35,914 nucleotides of DNA from an uncultured Mucilaginibacter sp. (GTDB taxonomy: Bacteria > Bacteroidota > Bacteroidia > Sphingobacteriales > Sphingobacteriaceae), in contig CAIYNX010000150.1 in the NCBI GenBank assembly GCA_903927645.1, positions 1-35,914 of the forward strand, in the 5' to 3' direction. The notes below the pieces were generated by a model that searched no databases, was not told where the DNA came from, and was given only the letters and a program-made list of their open reading frames with translations. Positions within the stretch are counted from its first letter, which is position 1. Each line of letters opens with the position of its first letter. The translations under genes and the position numbers were made by a program. Below, one piece after another: positions 1 to 25,405 of the stretch.

Positions 1-448
1 ACCACCTTGCCATATGTCCATTACTAAACCATTCTTTATAAAAACCTATGTATTCATCATTACTTACCTCAAAAATAAATTTGGGTTTTCCATCGGGCCA
101 CCATCCTTTATGTATACCTTCCTTATGGTTATTTATATACAGGCGTTCTTCCATCAGTTGTTTGTTGGGATACCATTTACGGGTAATTCCTTCCAATAAA
201 CCATGATAATAACCTACAACAAAGGCAGTATCGCCAGCGGCAAATAGACCAAAAACATGTCCAGTAAATGGTTTCTTATGGTAAAAAACAGTATCCTGAT
301 TTTTAGAAAGCGCCGAATTTATTTCGTTTATGTACTTAGCTGGAATTTTTTTTGGTGTTTTTAAAGCACTATTATCCCTTTCGTACCAAATACAAGAAGT
401 ACTTAACATGAAAAAGATAAAAATGACTTTAAAATTGATTATTTTCAA
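1..448 (-). CDS. YwqK/MORN-2 repeat lipoprotein, 3' end cut by window edge
   Basis: This gene is not in the ORF track. Reading the minus strand from a TTG at 448 gives an open frame to base 1 (149 codons). It begins with a typical lipoprotein signal: a Lys-containing start, a hydrophobic stretch (FKVIFIFFML) and a lipobox ending STSC, so the mature protein should be lipidated and exported. The body has MORN-2/YwqK-type repeats, with phrases such as KWYPNKQLMEERLY and GWWPDGKPKF matching the pattern G-x-W-x-x-N/D-G. YwqK-family proteins are often labelled toxin-antitoxin antitoxins, but the repeats only indicate a beta-hairpin scaffold and I assign no activity. The TTG lies 7 nt after the stop of the YHYH gene, so it is probably the last visible gene of the sigma-factor operon. 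An internal ATG at 409 would lose the signal peptide, so TTG is preferred. The C-terminus lies outside the window. Confidence 0.72.
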   Translation of the reverse strand, partial: MKIINFKVIFIFFMLSTSCIWYERDNSALKTPKKIPAKYINEINSALSKNQDTVFYHKKPFTGHVFGLFAAGDTAFVVGYYHGLLEGITRKWYPNKQLMEERLYINNHKEGIHKGWWPDGKPKFIFEVSNDEYIGFYKEWFSNGHMARW

Positions 449-455
449 ATTGTAA

Positions 456-1265
456 TTAATTTGATATAGTACCGGCTGTACCGTAAAATCCTGACCCATT
501 TAAGTAAGGTGCCTCTTGGGTAAAGTGATAATGATAGATCCCGTTCGGGTAATCGGCGGTAACACTTGTATGGCCATGATAGGTATCTAAATCGCTATCT
601 GTTAAAGTTTTGCCGTTTTCTTGCGGTCCATAAACCGGGAAGCCATCCAATAGAAAACCTAACAATGCCGAACTGGTAAATTTTGTTTGGGTAAGATATT
701 TAGGTTCTACATGGTAATGATATACACCACTATTTTGAGGGTGGCCCCAATATTGGTCAAATCCGGCTACCTCATTGGTAAGCGGACTACCACCCGCTGC
801 ATATTGATTAAAAAATACAACACCATTTAAGGCAATGCCTATAGGCCCAAGAGGTGTGGCAGCATGGCTTGTAGCAACCGTTGGGTTTAAAGGTATTTTT
901 ATGGTTATGCTTTGTGATGATATTGAATTACCGTTGTTTGCAAAAGTATTTCCATTGTAAGTAGTACCAGAAAATGCTTCGTACAGGGAGTTTGAGGTGG
1001 GATAGTAAACACTTTTATGGTCGGGTAAATTAGTAGTTTTAATGGTAATATAAGTTCCATCGGATGTTATGCTGGATGCGCCATAAATTTTTTTGTAAAC
1101 ATCGGGTACGGTAGAAGAACTACTTGCGGTTGTAGTAGTATCCGATTTTTTACAGGCAAATAAAGCCTCAGCAAGAAATATAATTAAACCAATTTTAGCA
1201 AGGTATTTAAATGTTATGTTTTTCATATTTAAGGTTTTATTGTTTTTAAAATTTATATGTTTCAT
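456..1265 (-). CDS. YHYH-domain lipoprotein
   Basis: A 269-residue exported lipoprotein. The N-terminus has a signal peptide with lipobox ALFAC followed by KKSD and a Thr/Ser-rich linker, then a YHYH domain (Pfam family named for this motif). Two YHYH motifs are visible, GVYHYHVEP and GIYHYHFT, plus a DTYHGH motif and FLLDGFPVYGP, all family hallmarks. The biochemical function of YHYH proteins is not established; the clustered His suggest metal binding, which is inference. The start at 1265 overlaps the upstream stop in a TAATG junction, which suits translational coupling. An internal ATG at 1226 would give a more ordinary signal-peptide length and is a real alternative. The gene sits downstream of an ECF sigma factor and a CpxP-like protein, suggesting an envelope-stress or metal-related role. 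Confidence 0.85.
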   Translation of the reverse strand: MKHINFKNNKTLNMKNITFKYLAKIGLIIFLAEALFACKKSDTTTTASSSSTVPDVYKKIYGASSITSDGTYITIKTTNLPDHKSVYYPTSNSLYEAFSGTTYNGNTFANNGNSISSQSITIKIPLNPTVATSHAATPLGPIGIALNGVVFFNQYAAGGSPLTNEVAGFDQYWGHPQNSGVYHYHVEPKYLTQTKFTSSALLGFLLDGFPVYGPQENGKTLTDSDLDTYHGHTSVTADYPNGIYHYHFTQEAPYLNGSGFYGTAGTISN

Positions 1266-1849
1266 TAATTGTTTGGCGGCAGTGGCCCTTGCGGCCGGTC
1301 TGCTGGTTGTTGTCCTCCGTCATTTGGTCGGCCACCGTTTGGTCGGTCGTTGTTAGGTGGGGGCGGAGGCATATCGCCATTACCCGGTCCATTAGGTGGC
1401 CCTTGTCTGTTAAGCATTTGTAAAACCTGATTTATAATGCCATCCAGCTTTTTCTGTTGTTGAGGCGTTAATATCAACCTTAAGTCATGAAAATGGTTAA
1501 AGGTAGTTTTATTAATTAAAGCATAATTTTCACCAATTTTATTTAATAATGAATCGATGGTTTTCTGTTTGGTATAACCATTTCCAATATTTTTAAACAA
1601 ACTGTCTTTTAGCAGGTTTATTTTTTCGTTCAAATCTTCCACAGTTTGGTGATGGGCTCTTCGCAAAACTTCGAATTTTTCAATTTGGGTTTGCGACATA
1701 TTGAGCTGTTGTATTAGAAACTCTTGAGTTGGCGCATGCCTCTTATCAAATAAACTTGGTTTTCCATGTCGCCAAACTAAAACCAATACAATGCTGTTAA
1801 TGCAAACAAGTATTATTACAATAATGGTCCAGATGGTATTTTTTTTCAT
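1265..1849 (-). CDS. CpxP/Spy-like periplasmic protein (periplasmic heavy-metal sensor family)
   Basis: A 194-residue protein with one N-terminal hydrophobic segment (about residues 7-27, WTIIVIILVCINSIVLVLVW) that would act as signal anchor or uncleaved signal. It is followed by a mostly helical region with heptad-like spacing. Two helical hairpin motifs resemble the LTxxQ signatures of CpxP/Spy/ZraP proteins: LNMSQTQIEKFEVLRRAH and LILTPQQQKKLDGI. Proteins of this family bind misfolded periplasmic proteins or metals and damp envelope-stress signalling. The last 45 or so residues are low-complexity Pro/Asn/Gly (PPPPPNN and similar), likely a flexible tail. The gene lies 11 nt after the putative anti-sigma gene and overlaps the YHYH gene start by one base. 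It has no Cys-rich or obvious His-rich metal site, so a metal-sensing role is uncertain. Confidence 0.75.
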   Translation of the reverse strand: MKKNTIWTIIVIILVCINSIVLVLVWRHGKPSLFDKRHAPTQEFLIQQLNMSQTQIEKFEVLRRAHHQTVEDLNEKINLLKDSLFKNIGNGYTKQKTIDSLLNKIGENYALINKTTFNHFHDLRLILTPQQQKKLDGIINQVLQMLNRQGPPNGPGNGDMPPPPPNNDRPNGGRPNDGGQQPADRPQGPLPPNN

Positions 1850-1860
1850 TGTAATATTTA

Positions 1861-2178
1861 TTAATAGTTATTTTGAATGCCTTGTAAATTGTAATCCTCC
1901 GAAAAGATGTTTAAATCATTGGTTTTAATGGATTTATTTGAAGTATTTGTTCCCAGTAAATAATTGTATGAGATAATATTGATAGCAATAAAAAATACGA
2001 GCATTGCAGCCAGCCTATACAATGGCCAAATAATTGGCTTTTCAATTTGCCCATCCAAGTCATCAATGCGATTTTTAATTCGTGTATACAGAAATTCATT
2101 CACATCAACTGATTGAATGTTATCAATGCTTTTTAATGCTTCATCAGCTTGTTTTTCTGCTTCCTTTAAATTCTTCAT
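1861..2178 (-). CDS. Small single-pass membrane protein, probable anti-sigma factor
   Basis: A 105-residue protein: about 48 acidic/basic cytoplasmic residues, one transmembrane helix (about residues 52-74, LYRLAAMLVFFIAINIISYN), then a short outer part ending in LQGIQNNY. Its ATG overlaps the sigma-factor TGA in an ATGA junction, the usual arrangement for an ECF sigma and its cognate regulator. The topology fits a membrane anti-sigma factor that holds the sigma factor at the inner membrane. No HxxxCxxC zinc anti-sigma motif is present, so the assignment rests on position, size and topology rather than a recognised domain. Confidence 0.6.
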   Translation of the reverse strand: MKNLKEAEKQADEALKSIDNIQSVDVNEFLYTRIKNRIDDLDGQIEKPIIWPLYRLAAMLVFFIAINIISYNYLLGTNTSNKSIKTNDLNIFSEDYNLQGIQNNY

Positions 2179-2741
2179 GATGCATAATATTTTGTTAAAC
2201 TTTTTCTCAAATTCAATTTTGCTCTTGTTAATAACGACTCTATAGCTCCTTCATTTAATTGCATGATCTCGGCAATTTTTTGTTGGCTGCAATGTTCAAC
2301 CTTTTGTAATAAAAAAGCCGTTTTTTGCTTGTCGGGCAATTCATCAATCGCTTTAAATAGTAGGGCCGCTTTTTCTTTGTTTTCCATTAATACCCCCGGA
2401 TGGTCAAAGTTTACAGGTTGATAAATTACCTCGTTTTCGCTGTTAAATAATGATAGCAAGGTTGCAAACCTTTTTTTTCTTTTAGCTTTACGTAAATAAT
2501 CGAGTGATTGATTAACGCTTATCCGATAAATCCAAGTGCTTAATTTTGCTTCACCTTTAAACCCACCAATAGTTTCATAAATTTTTAAAAAAACATCCTG
2601 CGTTACTTCTTCAGCATTTTCAACATCACGCAAAAACCCCAATACGGTATTGAACACACTTTTTTTATAGGTGTTTACCAATTGCTCGAAAGCTTTCATA
2701 TTGCCTCCTGTAACCGCATTAACTAATTCTTGGTCACTCAA
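2175..2741 (-). CDS. ECF-type RNA polymerase sigma-70 factor
   Basis: A 188-residue sigma factor with only regions 2 and 4. Region 2 contains the core-binding and -10 recognition segment (ENAEEVTQDVFLKIYETI, then LSTWIYRISVNQSLDYLRK), and region 4 contains a helix-turn-helix (LPDKQKTAFLLQ, then QQKIAEIMQLNEGAIESLLTRAK). It would direct RNA polymerase to a small regulon, probably including its own operon. The start is TTG at 2741; no in-frame ATG lies upstream before a stop, and the first internal ATG (MKAFEQL) would remove part of the usual N-terminus. It is the first gene of the operon running to the left edge. The stimulus is unknown; CpxP-like and YHYH partners point to the envelope. Confidence 0.93.
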   Translation of the reverse strand: MSDQELVNAVTGGNMKAFEQLVNTYKKSVFNTVLGFLRDVENAEEVTQDVFLKIYETIGGFKGEAKLSTWIYRISVNQSLDYLRKAKRKKRFATLLSLFNSENEVIYQPVNFDHPGVLMENKEKAALLFKAIDELPDKQKTAFLLQKVEHCSQQKIAEIMQLNEGAIESLLTRAKLNLRKSLTKYYAS

Positions 2742-2776
2742 AAGTTTGCCTGATTTTAAATTATTGGACGCCGATA

Positions 2777-2804
2777 TTTATTATTTCCTTCGAAAAATAA
2801 TAAA
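2777..2804 (-). terminator. AT-rich hairpin downstream of rlmN (weak candidate)
   Basis: A perfect 10-bp inverted repeat (TTTATTATTT paired with AAATAATAAA, 8-nt loop) lies between the rlmN stop and the sigma-factor start. The stem contains no G or C, so it would be a weak terminator. It could instead be part of the sigma operon leader. Confidence 0.25.
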
Positions 2805-18331: not shown

Positions 18332-21300
18332 TTGACTAAACATTTTACTTACAAATTTGCCCTTCTTATTTTTCTGCTTGCCAGTGTTGCATGCGCGCAG
18401 AATTTATTTGCCCAGGAGCAAACTGAACAAGTAAAAAAAGATACCACAAAAATTAAGGTACCATTAACTTATACTGAAACTAATAATTTTAGACTAAGGC
18501 ATGGTATTTTTGACCCCGACCCTCAAAATCTGGTACGAACAATTGAGTACGACCCGAAAACAGGTAATTATGTGCTTTATGAAAGAGTAGGAAATTTGTT
18601 ATATCGGCCGCCACTACAATTAACTTTTCAAGAATACCTGGAACTTTCACAAAAAATAAATAGGCGAAACTATTTCAGTCAATTAGCTAGTAATTATGCT
18701 TACCAATCACAGCAGCCTGGCTTTTTGCTACAAACCAAGATACAAAGTGAAGCTTTTAACCAAATTTTTGGTGGTACTAATGTTGATTTGAGACCACAAG
18801 GTTCGGCAGAGGCAATTTTAGCCGGGCAGATAACCAAAAGCCAAAATCCATTATTCAACACGGCGCAGCAAAATCAGTTCAATTTTAATTTTGATCAAAA
18901 AATTCAACTAAACCTTACCGGCGATATTGGTACCAAATTAAAAATTACCGGTAATTATAACACCGATTCGCAATTTCAATTTGAAAACCAGGTAAAGCTT
19001 GACTATACAGGCACCCCTGATGAAATTATTCAAAAAATTGAAATTGGTACCGTAAACATGCCTTTACCAACTACCTTAATACAAGGCACTCAATCATTGT
19101 TCGGTTTAAAAACCAAGTTAAAATTTGGTAAGCTCGATGTAACTACCATATTGGCGCAACAACGGTCAAAATCTCAAACAATCACTATTTCTAATACAGG
19201 GCAACAGGGGCAGTTTAAAGTATCAGCATCGGCATATGAGGCCAATAAACATTACTTTTTATCGCAGTATTTTCATGATAACTATAATAAGGCCCTAGCT
19301 AATATTCCAATAATTAGTTCCAATATAAACATCACTAAAATTGAAGTTTGGATTACCAACCGAACCAATGTAACCACAGGATCTCGTGATATACTTGCCT
19401 TTTTAGATTTGGGCGAAAACAAGCCTTATAACCAAACCTTGGTTAGAGGTGGAGCCGGTTTTTCCGCGCTTCCGGCAGGGTTTCAAGGCCCTGGTTTTAA
19501 TCAACAATCCAACTCTTTGCTCCGTAATTTGCCAGCTAATGCTCGACTTTCCAACGATCCGCAAAATACCATATCAAATTATTTTTCAGGAAGTCAAGGT
19601 GGTGCTGATAATTATGCAAAACTAAAATATGCAAGGCAATTAACCACCAAAGAATATACACTGCAACCACAATTGGGCTATATTTCATTAAATACTCCAC
19701 TAAATAATGATGAGGTTTTAGCGGTTGCATACCAGTATACAGATAATGGAGTAGCTTATCAGGTTGGGGAGTTTACCTCAGATATTCCGGTAAACCCTAC
19801 TACCGCGAATGTTTTATACGTAAAGTTGTTAAAAAATCAACTCGTTAAAACAAGTTTGCCAACTTGGAATTTAATGATGAAAAACATTTATTCATTAAAT
19901 GCTTCACAAATTAGCCCAAATAATTTCAAACTTTCAATTTCTCGACTTGATGATGTATCTGGAATTACCAAATCAATTATGGAGGAGGGCCCCTCAACTA
20001 CAAAAAGCAAGTTATGGCTACAACTGGCCGGGCTCGATAATCTGGATCAACAACAACAAAAACAACCTGATGGTTATTTCGATTTTTTAGAAGGCGTAAC
20101 CATCAATTCACAATATGGCCGCATTGTGTTCCCGGTATTGGAACCTTTTGGTGCCGACCTTTATAACCAATTAAAAGGTAATCAACCAAGTCCCAACCCA
20201 AATCTTGCTAATAGATATGTGTTTCAACAATTGTATGATTCAACCCAAACGGTTGCGCAACGCTTGTTTCCTAATTTAAACAGATACACCATACAAGGTA
20301 CTTTTTCATCTTCGGGTGGGTCAGAATTTCAACTAAATGCGGTTAATATACCACAAGGTTCAGTAACAGTAAATGCAGGTACCTTACAATTAAAGGATGG
20401 GGTTGATTATACCATTGATTACAGCTCCGGAACCATCCGGATATTAAATACGGCCATTTTATTATCGGGCCAACCAATTTCGGTAAATGTTGAGAATAAT
20501 ACACTATTTGGTGTTCAGCAAAAAACTTTAATGGGTAGTAGGTTTGATTACCAAATGAGCGACGATTTAAAATTAGGTGCTACCCTTATGCACCTTACAG
20601 AACAACCTGTTACTCAAAATGAGGTGATTGGTAATTCTTCAATTTCAAATACGCTTTACGGCTTTGATGCAAATTACAATACTGATTCAAGATTTCTTAC
20701 CAAAATGGTTGATGCTATTCCGTTTATTCATACAAAAGTACCATCATCCATAAATTTTACCGGAGAATTTGCCCAATTATTACCCGGCAATCCCTCCACA
20801 ACTAACTTTGGAGGTGCTAAAAATGGTACGGTATATTTAGATGATTTTGAAAACAGCACTTCATTTATTGATGTGAAGAGCCCAACCGGATGGCAAATTT
20901 CGGGAACACCACAAACGCCATCATTCCCGGAATCAAACTATTTTAATGATTTGCGATATGGCTATGGGAGGGCACGTTTAGCATGGTATACCATCGATCC
21001 TGTTTTTTATTCCGGGTCTTCTATCCCCATCAATGCCAACGAACTTTCAAACCATTATGTAAGGCAAGTATTGCAGAATGAGGTTTTCCCTACGCAACAA
21101 TCGCAAACCGGCCAACCTTACAATATACCTACGCTTGATCTTGCTTATTACCCAATGGTGAGAGGCCCTTATAACTATGATGTGCAAAACATTAATACAG
21201 ATGGTACTCTTCAAAACCCTTCTGGCAGGTGGGCAGGTATTTTTAAAGGGCTTAATTCAAATAATTTTGAAGCACTAAACGTGGTTTATATTGAATTTTG

Positions 21301-24300
21301 GATGATGGACCCTTTCATTTATAAACCAAATTCAAAAGGTGGAAATCTATATTTTAACTTAGGTAATATATCAGAAGATATTTTGAAGGACGGGCAAAAA
21401 AGCCTTGAGAATGCCCTTCCGGTAAATGGCGATACGAGCCAAGTTACCAAAACTGTTTGGGGCAAAGTATCCAGTACCCAAACCGTTGTAAATTCCTTCG
21501 CCAATGATCCAACAGTAAGAGCATTGCAGGATGTTGGCTTAGATGGATTAAATGATACAGATGAAAAAAATTATTTTTCAAAATCGGTACTGCAAGTTCA
21601 AGCTAAAACAAATGCTGATGCAGCAAATGCCTTTGCCACCGACCCTTCATCAGATGATTACCAATATTATCAGGGTCCTTCTTTAGATAAAGTAAATGCA
21701 GGGATATTACAACGTTATAGTAAATATAACGGTACCGAAGGTAATTCGCCTACTACACAACAATCGCAAGCACTTCTTGGTTTAACAACCTCAGCTGCAA
21801 CACCGTCTCCTGATGGCGAAGACATTAACCATGATAATAACATGGATCAGGATGAAGAATTTTTTGAATATAAGGTGCACTTAACGCCACAAGACTTATT
21901 TGTAGGTAATAAATATATCACCAATAAAATTACCTCACAAGTAAAACTGGCCAACGGTATCACTCAACCAGTAACTTGGTATCAATTCAGAATTCCAATT
22001 AATACACCGGATGCCCGTTTTGGAAATATTCAGGATTTTAAATCCATCCGTTATATGCGGATGTATTTGAATGGCTTTGAGGATACTACTGTATTACGTA
22101 TGGCTACATTGCAATTGGTGCAGGGTTCATGGATTGGTTTTAACATACAAAATGTTCCTTCAAATGTTATTGCAGATCCGGGCTTGGGGCTTTCACCTCC
22201 GGTAGATAATTCTACGCTGGATGTAACGGCTGCAAACCTTTTTGATGATGCCAACAGAACGCCGATTCCTTATGTAGTTCCTCCGGGTATTCAGCAACAA
22301 ACAAATGTTAGCAGCTTACAGGCCAATACTAAATTAAATGAACAGTCATTATCAGTAGCAGTTACAAATTTGAGCGATGGGTACTCAAGAGCAGCCTATA
22401 AATTATTAAATAAAGACTTGCGCCAATACAAAAACTTAAACATGTTTATACATGCAGAAAGTAATCCTTCAACAAATACGCCATTAAGGGATAACGATCT
22501 TAATGCATTTGTTAGGTTAGGAACAGATTTTACCGAAAATTACTATGAATATGAATTGCCCTTGCAAGTAACCCAACCAGGTACTTCTGATCCGAATGCT
22601 GTTTGGCCTGCACAAAATGAATTAAACTTACAGCTACAAACGCTTGTTAATGCAAAATTAAAAAGAGATACTTCGCACTACAATGGCAAACCCTGGCCAT
22701 TATCGCTACCATTTAAATATAATAATATAACCATTGTAGGTCAGCCCGACTTAAGTCAGGTTTCTACCATTATGTTAGGAGTACGCAATCCGTTAAGAAC
22801 AAACGCTACTTCATCCAAGGATGATGGGCTTTCAAAATCGGCTGTAGTTTGGTTTGATGAATTGCGTTTAACTGATTTTAAAGAACAAGATGGATGGGCA
22901 GCTACCGGCAGGTTAAGTGCTAAATTGGCTGATTTTGCCAATATCTCTGTTTCATCAAGTAAAAGTACTGCTGGTTTTGGTCCGCTCGAATCAACTATTG
23001 ACAATAGGAGCATGGATAATAATTCCACTTACGATATTACAGGTACTTTTGAATTGGGTAAATTCTTTCCAGCTAAATCAGGGGTGCATATCCCTCTATA
23101 TGTTGATGTTTCACATCAGGTTAGTGCGCCGGAGTATAATCCATCTTCACCTGACGTATTGCTTAGTCAATCACTTGATGCTGCAAAAACAGCGCAACAA
23201 CGAGATTCAATTAGAAATGCCACTGAATCTATCACCAGCCGTACCAGCATCAATTTAACCAATGTTCATATTTCAAATACAGATCCTAAGGCAAAAGCTA
23301 AAATATTATCTATTACTAACTTGAATACTAGCTTGGCCTATACCGAATATTTACACCATGATTTTACGGTTCAAAATAATGTGGAGCGGACGTATCACGT
23401 AGCCTTTGCCTATAACTATTCTGATAAAGCAAATTATACAGAGCCATTTGCCAAAATAATTAAGAAGAATTGGCTATCACTTGTAAAGAGCATTAATTAT
23501 GATTTGGTGCCAACCAGACTAAATTATAGCATCAATTTCGATCGTTTTTATTCGGAAAGTACATTGCGAAACAATGACCCTAGCTCAATAATTCCAATAC
23601 CTACCTCTTTTAATAAAACATTTAATATAACCAGGATATATGGTTTAGGTTGGAATTTAACAAAATCACTAACAATGGATATTGATGCCACCAATTTATC
23701 AACTGTTGATGAACCGGTAGGGCGATTGGATGGCTTAAAAGTGGACACACTTTGGCATAATATTTTAACCTTGGGGCGCACCACAAATTATAATCATTCC
23801 TTAAATTTTGCATATACTGTTCCTTTAACAAAAATTTCATTTTTAGATTGGACTACCTTGGTAGTTCATTATACCACGCATTTTACTTGGCAAGGGCAGC
23901 CATTATTTGCCATTACCGATCCGCAATATGATGTTGGAAATACCATTCAAAATTCAAAACAGATACAGTTTAATCCTTCATTAAATTTTGTCACGCTTTA
24001 TAATAAATTCCCTGCCTTAAAAAGGGCTTTGGCCGACAGAGAAAATAGCAACTTTTTGATCAATTTACTTACAAGTATAAAAAGTGTTAGCGCTACTTAT
24101 ACCCAAACAAGAGGAACTTTTATCCCCGGATATTTACCACAGTCGACTTTTGCAGGGCAGGACTTTACCTATAATTCACCGGGCATTGGATTTTTATTAG
24201 GGAGCCAAGCCGATCTTCGTTCCAGAGCCTTGGCCAATGGCTGGATAAGTACCGATACACTTCAAAATCAACAATATTCAAATACCTATTCGGAAGATTT

Positions 24301-25405
24301 ACATTTAAGAGGAACTATTGAACCTATTAAGGGGTTAAAAATAGATTTAACGGCCTACAGAACACAGGATCATACCTATCAAAGTAATATTAAATCACTT
24401 GATGGCACCAATAATATACAAGAGCTTAACCCGATTACTACTGGAAACTATACCATAAGTTATATGACTATAGCAACCTCATTTTCAAAAATTTCGGGAA
24501 TTGACAATACTTCTGCTACTTACCAAAAGTTTTTGGATAATGAAAGTACAATCTCACAGCGTTTAGGTAAGTCGAACCCAAACTCAACAGGACCATCCTC
24601 AAATGGCTTTGCTGATGGTTACGGACCTAATTCACAAAATGTGTTAGTGCCAGCATTTCTTGCCGCCTATACCGGTAAGAGTGTTTCAACATCAAGCTTA
24701 AACCAGTTTCCATCTATCCCAATTCCAAACTGGTTAATGTCATATAATGGATTAAGTAAACTAACCTTATTTAGCGACCTCTTTGAATCGATCGATATAA
24801 AAAATGGTTACAGATCGTCCTATAATATAAATGGCTATAGTACTTCATTGCAATATAAGCAAGCAAACGGGGCAGTTTCTACCCGAGATGCCAACAATGA
24901 TTTTCTACCTTATTATCAATTTTCGCAGGTTAGTATATTGGAACAATTTGTACCCCTGTTTGGAATTGATGCCCGATTTAAGGACGGAATGACCGCATCG
25001 CTTGAATTTAGAAAAAGCCGGGCCTTAAGTTTAAGTATTTCAAATACGCAATTAGCACAACAAAATTTAAATGTTTATGTATTTGGCTGGGGTTATCATG
25101 CAAGAGATTTCCATTTTCCTTTTGGATGGTTTAGCGAAACTACCAATAAAAAAGATGTAAATTTTAAAGTGGATTTTTCATTACAGGATAGTAAAACTTT
25201 AATTTATCAATCAGGAGTGCCGGGTGCCCAAATATCATCAGGATCACAAAATATAGCAGTAAAACCATCAATTGATTATATGATTAATAAGGTTTTCAAC
25301 CTTAACTTCTTTTATGATTCAACCATCACAAAGCCATATACATCACAAACATTTGTTACCGCATCAACAACCTTTGGTATAAATATTAAAATGATATTAC
25401 AATAA
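18332..25405 (+). CDS. sprA: SprA, type IX secretion system outer-membrane translocon
   Basis: A giant 2357-residue protein with an N-terminal signal (YKFALLIFLLASVACAQNLFAQ). It is close in length to Flavobacterium johnsoniae SprA (about 2400), the very large single-chain beta-barrel that forms the T9SS translocation pore. N-terminal SprA-type motifs are visible, such as GTPDEIIQKIEIGTVNMPLP followed by LFGLKTKLKFGKLDVTTILAQQ. About residue 830 is GTVYLDDFENSTSFIDVKSP, and alternating amphipathic strands fill the rest. Secreted cargo would carry C-terminal T9SS signals. The start is TTG at 18332, 19 nt after ruvA, and the signal peptide begins directly after it, so co-transcription with ruvA is likely. 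No other T9SS genes (gldKLMN, porV, sprE) are in the window. The frame is intact. Confidence 0.96.
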   Translation: MTKHFTYKFALLIFLLASVACAQNLFAQEQTEQVKKDTTKIKVPLTYTETNNFRLRHGIFDPDPQNLVRTIEYDPKTGNYVLYERVGNLLYRPPLQLTFQEYLELSQKINRRNYFSQLASNYAYQSQQPGFLLQTKIQSEAFNQIFGGTNVDLRPQGSAEAILAGQITKSQNPLFNTAQQNQFNFNFDQKIQLNLTGDIGTKLKITGNYNTDSQFQFENQVKLDYTGTPDEIIQKIEIGTVNMPLPTTLIQGTQSLFGLKTKLKFGKLDVTTILAQQRSKSQTITISNTGQQGQFKVSASAYEANKHYFLSQYFHDNYNKALANIPIISSNINITKIEVWITNRTNVTTGSRDILAFLDLGENKPYNQTLVRGGAGFSALPAGFQGPGFNQQSNSLLRNLPANARLSNDPQNTISNYFSGSQGGADNYAKLKYARQLTTKEYTLQPQLGYISLNTPLNNDEVLAVAYQYTDNGVAYQVGEFTSDIPVNPTTANVLYVKLLKNQLVKTSLPTWNLMMKNIYSLNASQISPNNFKLSISRLDDVSGITKSIMEEGPSTTKSKLWLQLAGLDNLDQQQQKQPDGYFDFLEGVTINSQYGRIVFPVLEPFGADLYNQLKGNQPSPNPNLANRYVFQQLYDSTQTVAQRLFPNLNRYTIQGTFSSSGGSEFQLNAVNIPQGSVTVNAGTLQLKDGVDYTIDYSSGTIRILNTAILLSGQPISVNVENNTLFGVQQKTLMGSRFDYQMSDDLKLGATLMHLTEQPVTQNEVIGNSSISNTLYGFDANYNTDSRFLTKMVDAIPFIHTKVPSSINFTGEFAQLLPGNPSTTNFGGAKNGTVYLDDFENSTSFIDVKSPTGWQISGTPQTPSFPESNYFNDLRYGYGRARLAWYTIDPVFYSGSSIPINANELSNHYVRQVLQNEVFPTQQSQTGQPYNIPTLDLAYYPMVRGPYNYDVQNINTDGTLQNPSGRWAGIFKGLNSNNFEALNVVYIEFWMMDPFIYKPNSKGGNLYFNLGNISEDILKDGQKSLENALPVNGDTSQVTKTVWGKVSSTQTVVNSFANDPTVRALQDVGLDGLNDTDEKNYFSKSVLQVQAKTNADAANAFATDPSSDDYQYYQGPSLDKVNAGILQRYSKYNGTEGNSPTTQQSQALLGLTTSAATPSPDGEDINHDNNMDQDEEFFEYKVHLTPQDLFVGNKYITNKITSQVKLANGITQPVTWYQFRIPINTPDARFGNIQDFKSIRYMRMYLNGFEDTTVLRMATLQLVQGSWIGFNIQNVPSNVIADPGLGLSPPVDNSTLDVTAANLFDDANRTPIPYVVPPGIQQQTNVSSLQANTKLNEQSLSVAVTNLSDGYSRAAYKLLNKDLRQYKNLNMFIHAESNPSTNTPLRDNDLNAFVRLGTDFTENYYEYELPLQVTQPGTSDPNAVWPAQNELNLQLQTLVNAKLKRDTSHYNGKPWPLSLPFKYNNITIVGQPDLSQVSTIMLGVRNPLRTNATSSKDDGLSKSAVVWFDELRLTDFKEQDGWAATGRLSAKLADFANISVSSSKSTAGFGPLESTIDNRSMDNNSTYDITGTFELGKFFPAKSGVHIPLYVDVSHQVSAPEYNPSSPDVLLSQSLDAAKTAQQRDSIRNATESITSRTSINLTNVHISNTDPKAKAKILSITNLNTSLAYTEYLHHDFTVQNNVERTYHVAFAYNYSDKANYTEPFAKIIKKNWLSLVKSINYDLVPTRLNYSINFDRFYSESTLRNNDPSSIIPIPTSFNKTFNITRIYGLGWNLTKSLTMDIDATNLSTVDEPVGRLDGLKVDTLWHNILTLGRTTNYNHSLNFAYTVPLTKISFLDWTTLVVHYTTHFTWQGQPLFAITDPQYDVGNTIQNSKQIQFNPSLNFVTLYNKFPALKRALADRENSNFLINLLTSIKSVSATYTQTRGTFIPGYLPQSTFAGQDFTYNSPGIGFLLGSQADLRSRALANGWISTDTLQNQQYSNTYSEDLHLRGTIEPIKGLKIDLTAYRTQDHTYQSNIKSLDGTNNIQELNPITTGNYTISYMTIATSFSKISGIDNTSATYQKFLDNESTISQRLGKSNPNSTGPSSNGFADGYGPNSQNVLVPAFLAAYTGKSVSTSSLNQFPSIPIPNWLMSYNGLSKLTLFSDLFESIDIKNGYRSSYNINGYSTSLQYKQANGAVSTRDANNDFLPYYQFSQVSILEQFVPLFGIDARFKDGMTASLEFRKSRALSLSISNTQLAQQNLNVYVFGWGYHARDFHFPFGWFSETTNKKDVNFKVDFSLQDSKTLIYQSGVPGAQISSGSQNIAVKPSIDYMINKVFNLNFFYDSTITKPYTSQTFVTASTTFGINIKMILQ

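Follow-up and report, generated by a model that had tools for sequence, protein, structure and literature searches.

The locus at the left end of the window, the whole 35,914-nucleotide stretch of DNA from an uncultured Mucilaginibacter sp. analysed here, raises the question of what is controlled by an ECF sigma factor encoded alongside a one-helix membrane protein and a run of exported proteins. The first-pass annotation saw five packed minus-strand genes as one sigma-controlled envelope unit, serving either envelope stress or a metal response. An ORF check agreed with the five genes and their order, strand and spacing, with Pfam backing the sigma, YHYH and MORN_2 assignments, and the reading as a sigma-controlled envelope operon is supported; the five-gene extent is not, a sixth gene, encoding an SCO protein, being present on a second contig (C223).

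Layout of the locus and its continuation beyond the window

The putative six-gene operon consists of sigma, anti-sigma, sensor, YHYH, MORN and SCO genes, with a putative promoter before the first:

2764..2792, minus strand: putative promoter of ECF-sigma type, CGAAGGAA-N14-CGTCCAA, lying 51 nt upstream of the TTG of the sigma gene
2175..2741, minus strand: ECF sigma factor gene, TTG start (PF04542 8e-15, PF08281 2e-13)
1861..2178, minus strand: putative anti-sigma factor gene, single transmembrane segment, ATGA overlap with the sigma gene
1265..1849, minus strand: gene for a CnrX-like, membrane-anchored periplasmic sensor (Metal_resist/CpxP superfamily), 11-nt gap after the anti-sigma gene
456..1226, minus strand: YHYH lipoprotein gene (PF14240), ORF extendable to 1265
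1..448, minus strand: MORN-2 (YwqK-like) lipoprotein gene, TTG start after a 7-nt gap (PF07661 1e-7), 3′ end lost at base 1
L106:8134-8418, minus strand: continuation of the MORN gene on the joined contig C223
L106:7493-8161, minus strand: SCO1/SenC gene, the sixth of the locus, beyond the window on contig C223 after MORN

Window positions 1-141, at the start of contig G000:C150, overlap exactly over 141 bp with the end of G000:C223 from the same genome, and the break at the window start is an assembly break, not the true end of the locus. The SCO orthologue was found on C223 with the SCO-like gene of L022, the closest relative, as query (78% identity). On the joined sequence SCO is followed by a ComF-like phosphoribosyltransferase gene, with no metal efflux pump in the operon. 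The close packing described earlier was retained for the ATGA overlap and the 11-nt and 7-nt gaps; the TAATG overlap was not, with YHYH probably starting at 1226 and not at the ATG at 1265, since the L022 orthologue begins with an ATG matching 1226 and lipobox Cys25 is conserved (67 of 68 sequences). The TTG start of the sigma gene is likewise kept in L022. Elsewhere in the window, on the plus strand at 18332-25405, lies an SprA-type gliding/type IX secretion gene (PF14349), of a kind ordinary in the Bacteroidota phylum.

The regulatory triad and its promoter motif

The identity of the first product as an ECF sigma factor was borne out by PF04542 and PF08281 and by PDB sequence matches, which were to ECF sigma factors including CnrH (6e-8), with RpoE, SigW and SigH scoring better. 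The second is, as first described, a one-helix membrane protein, conserved in position in 18 homologues; its layout resembles that of CnrY, a short cytoplasmic N-terminus being followed by one transmembrane segment and a short tail with a near-invariant terminal tyrosine. Searches of Pfam, NCBIfam and PDB gave no significant match to this protein, and no sequence match to CnrY, so that the putative anti-sigma role of the 1861..2178 product is drawn from its layout.

The third protein had been described as CpxP/Spy-like, but is closer to CnrX. CpxP/Spy stress chaperones carry two LTXXQ motifs and are soluble periplasmic proteins with no transmembrane anchor; the window protein has one LTPQQ, an N-terminal helix (3-28) resembling an anchor and a sub-threshold LTXXQ Pfam match, and does not match this type. 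It scores below threshold for Metal_resist (PF13801, 4e-4), with homologues above the cut-off, and the sensor profile matched Spy (2e-4), NccX (4e-4) and CnrX (7e-3) among PDB sequences. By fold, the sensor model was matched best by CnrX (3epv; a modest E of 5e-3, probability 1.00, TM 0.78 on the target), CnrX entries ranking ahead of CpxP and Spy. Two histidines, His66 and His119, are invariant across 31 sensor sequences with a mean identity of 26%. His119 falls on a metal ligand of CnrX and His66 lies two residues off CnrX E63; the CnrX ligands H42, H46 and M123, the last being required in CnrX for Ni/Co signalling, have no conserved equivalents in the alignment, and since only the H119 position matches, the choice of metal is not readable from the sensor. 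Because the sensor models closest to CnrX and has two invariant histidines, the triad appears closer to CnrH-CnrY-CnrX than to a stress system of the CpxP/Spy type. In CnrYXH, metal binding by CnrX, a Ni/Co sensor, frees CnrH from CnrY (PMC7689651). CnrX-like sensors were detected in 149 of 396 Bacteroidota genomes, mostly without YHYH nearby, and their usual role may therefore be broader than copper. At L233-L252, CnrX-like sigma triads lie near second Spy-like proteins, MbnP/MbnH and TonB-type receptors.

The earlier proposal that the sigma factor controls its own operon is supported by a putative ECF-type promoter motif, CGAAGGAA-N14-CGTC, found ahead of the sigma gene at 2792-2767. The underlying AAGG/CGTC pattern came from a search for dyads in the regions ahead of sigma genes. 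In relatives the motif stands ahead of sigma, anti-sigma or YHYH genes, and at L049 and L052 ahead of both the sigma and the YHYH gene. In the discovery set it was found before sigma genes in 8/51 cases (0.5 in shuffles) and before YHYH genes in 10/83 (0.7 in shuffles), all ten in loci with the triad; there is some circularity in these scores, as the same set supplied the matrix, and some of the loci are close kin. Among loci not used to build the motif, 10/43 scored above the 99% null level with 0.4 expected. Control genes exceeded this level in 6/438 cases, the top three of which occupy the place of the anti-sigma gene and are read as such genes, missed by labelling. Within the window the motif has a single match (0 in 100 shuffles). 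The exact motif occurs twice in the genome, the only gene-proximal match being that of this operon; the other site (C196) was set aside with no gene close behind it, and a backwards control pattern gave one genome match as well.

The YHYH, MORN and SCO genes across the Bacteroidota

Using YHYH as the query, 80 relatives were chosen from 85,000 species genomes. MORN lies directly after YHYH in all 80, and SCO follows MORN in all 77 loci where this could be tested, the three remaining contigs stopping earlier. The same trio accompanies nearly all close YHYH matches in an evenly drawn sample of 396 Bacteroidota genomes and a family-level sample of 201 genomes, and this recurrence across many Bacteroidota families places the gene arrangement far above chance. 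The MORN family splits cleanly from other MORN-2 proteins, with 24 matches in the 396 genomes at E<=2e-27 and the next at 3e-23. Its matches have YHYH upstream except for G381, G000:C24 and the window's own two contig pieces; the G381 match, adjoined by neither SCO nor YHYH, was set aside. No description of a YHYH-MORN-SCO arrangement was found in the literature searched.

In 30 of the 80 relatives YHYH has the sigma/anti-sigma/sensor triad beside it, upstream in 24, divergent in five and downstream in one. On a FastTree phylogeny the presence of the triad switches at least 15 times, which marks it as a detachable regulator. As the other 50 relatives have YHYH with no adjacent triad, the constant unit, judged from gene order, appears to be YHYH-MORN-SCO joined by this detachable regulator and not the five-gene set. 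The sigma-linked context first proposed for YHYH thus stands in part: an adjoining triad is missing from most relatives, but it recurs in three orientations, and these, together with a common promoter motif found before YHYH mostly in triad loci, argue that the link is real. Counted by genome, YHYH and the sensor family showed no enriched co-occurrence (about 15/38 against 134/358, by eye); only their physical linkage is enriched. No constant upstream partner was found for YHYH operons lacking the triad, which are preceded by an M1 peptidase, MFS, peroxiredoxin, TonB-type or other gene, all different. At the same site in Mucilaginibacter, the triad is present in the window, L022 and L093 and absent in G024, G030 and L086, a pattern not taken as simple loss because the YHYH copies sit in different parts of the FastTree phylogeny. 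The culturable Mucilaginibacter psychrotolerans (L023) also carries the triad. In two loci the main YHYH gene is separated from the triad by a second YHYH gene that has diverged (L025 3288-4280, L026 3111-4310). The YHYH-MORN-SCO system occurs in expanded form at L198 (G466:C39, 135-9221), where two MORN-SCO pairs and several YHYH-like genes are clustered with anti-sigma and sensor genes and one for a small EF-hand-like protein.

In SCO, C94xxxC98 and H183 are invariant in 75/75 sequences including that of this genome, and the L022 orthologue matches PF02630 at 1e-25. In true SCO proteins CxxxC and His serve as copper ligands, and SCO-like proteins can also work as thiol-disulfide enzymes. The C-terminal cysteine of MORN is kept in 39/39 aligned proteins. 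YHYH matches PF14240 at 2e-25 (90.4 bits against a cut-off of 25), and H70, H162, H170, H172, H217, H219, H232 and H234 are invariant in 68 close homologues. The D157/H162/H170/H172/D194/D214 core is universal among YHYH proteins; an extra set, H70, H219, H232 and H234, is constant in SCO-linked YHYH and replaced in most longer YHYH without MORN-SCO, and fits a second metal site. The AlphaFold model (pLDDT 89, pTM 0.80) clearly matches viral YHYH proteins of phages and giant viruses. It has no fold match in PDB, where sequence searching gave only SufS fragments, rejected as spurious.

Copper proteins recur around these genes. This genome has a second MORN-SCO pair (L195, G000:C24, 607-3264), joined by an ATGA overlap to a preceding gene for a full-length multicopper oxidase lipoprotein; it is the only such pair seen behind a non-YHYH gene, and is one locus, on a contig of 3.5 kb. 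YHYH is followed in G039 by a multicopper oxidase with 56% identity to that of this genome, and relatives of the same oxidase lie near longer YHYH in G275 and G260. Longer YHYH is found directly behind an MbnH-like di-haem protein in 7/8 loci of relatives, usually with MbnP before the MbnH-like gene where there is enough flank, and the set itself stands behind the same sigma triad in G057, G102, G268 and G045. MbnP and MbnH have been discussed as partners in copper homeostasis, with direct evidence then lacking (PMC3621798). A redoxin-like protein with a TCNHCPFA motif, perhaps an SCO stand-in, adjoins the multicopper oxidase in YHYH loci (L256 7444-8079, L262 6299-6904, L268 7651-8268).

Proposed mechanism and comparison with known systems

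Between the two responses first proposed, the CnrX-like sensor, SCO and the copper-protein neighbours favour the metal option. We hold it moderately probable that the locus is a self-regulated, metal-responsive six-gene operon, with a CnrHYX-like switch, probably for copper, driving the YHYH-MORN-SCO trio. Periplasmic metal would be bound by the sensor around His66 and His119, the metal-bound sensor would loosen the grip of the anti-sigma on the sigma factor, by analogy with CnrH-CnrY-CnrX, and the freed sigma factor would transcribe all six genes from CGAAGGAA-N14-CGTC. The effectors would be the YHYH lipoprotein, the MORN-2 lipoprotein with its conserved C-terminal cysteine and the SCO copper chaperone; YHYH would act as an extracytoplasmic metalloprotein, most likely copper-loaded or copper-handling, supplied with copper by SCO and with MORN helping docking, and might use the metal in oxidase-like chemistry, buffer it or supply copper. 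We infer from neighbours and residues that copper is the signal, how the sigma factor is released, how metal passes between the proteins and how YHYH uses it. The switch may respond to copper excess or to copper need: CnrX-type systems answer metal excess; MbnP- and SCO-type effectors suggest supply.

An envelope-stress operon, in which a CpxP/Spy-type chaperone feeds back on the anti-sigma, SCO works as a thiol-disulfide oxidoreductase and envelope repair in general falls to the YHYH and MORN lipoproteins, would be in keeping with the CpxP/Spy/CnrX superfamily of the sensor, its profile match to Spy (2e-4), the CpxP and Spy entries among its fold matches and the small Spy/LTXXQ-like proteins adjoining other triads (L238, L242, L250). 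It is unlikely, given that CnrX ranks ahead of both by fold, that the sensor family holds two invariant histidines at 26% mean identity and that SCO retains all three copper ligands in the company of recurrent copper proteins. The missing M123, needed by CnrX for Ni/Co signalling, counts against the triad sensing nickel, cobalt or zinc as part of a general metal-resistance unit, as do the copper-type effectors and the lack of an RND or other efflux gene, such that this possibility, which draws on the structural kinship of the sensor to a Ni/Co sensor (PMC7689651), is improbable.

A zinc-dependent envelope hydrolase, with the SCO neighbour serving redox maintenance and not metallation, would account for the universal 3-His/Asp core of YHYH and the fold common to phage and giant-virus proteins, and the YHYH domain of phage tails has been predicted to be a zinc-dependent hydrolase (PMC7824862). 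The constant SCO linkage, and the MbnP/MbnH and multicopper oxidase genes beside longer forms, would be unexpected for such an enzyme, and the extra histidines track the SCO-linked forms, making this reading quite unlikely.

PF14240 occurs in bacteria, phages, giant viruses and diatoms, and no tested function for it was found in the literature searched, nor a true sequence or fold match in PDB. The near-invariant copper-chaperone link, the association with MbnP/MbnH and multicopper oxidases and the sigma promoter motif give the family a specific and cheaply testable role, copper handling at the cell surface, and the findings suggest a sigma-based route of metal signalling in Bacteroidota. More tentatively, and with slightly more doubt than belief, YHYH proteins may form a novel class of extracytoplasmic copper proteins with a MORN-SCO maturation cassette of their own, and a CnrHYX-like copper-sensing switch of Bacteroidota may govern the operons for YHYH, MbnP/MbnH and multicopper oxidase, which would be exchangeable parts of a single copper network.

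Among known systems, the phage tail YHYH domain shares with the window protein its Pfam family, predicted fold and 3-His/Asp core, whereas the latter is a lipoprotein in its own right, with four additional histidines conserved. SCO1/SenC copper chaperones are likewise lipoproteins with fully conserved CxxxC and His; here the gene stands beside those for YHYH and MORN lipoproteins. The methanobactin-associated MbnP/MbnH pair is copper-linked and precedes longer YHYH, partly behind the same sigma triad, but is absent from the window operon, the SCO-linked short YHYH being a separate arrangement; copper binding by MbnP was reportedly addressed in later biochemical work. CnrYXH of Cupriavidus metallidurans also encodes together an ECF sigma factor, a small one-TM anti-sigma, here putative, and an anchored sensor of the CnrX fold. 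In contrast to CnrYXH, the gene order here is sigma-anti-sensor, the sensor has His66 and no equivalents of H42, H46 and M123, the anti-sigma is not recognisably homologous to CnrY, and the putative targets are YHYH, MORN and SCO in place of an RND pump.
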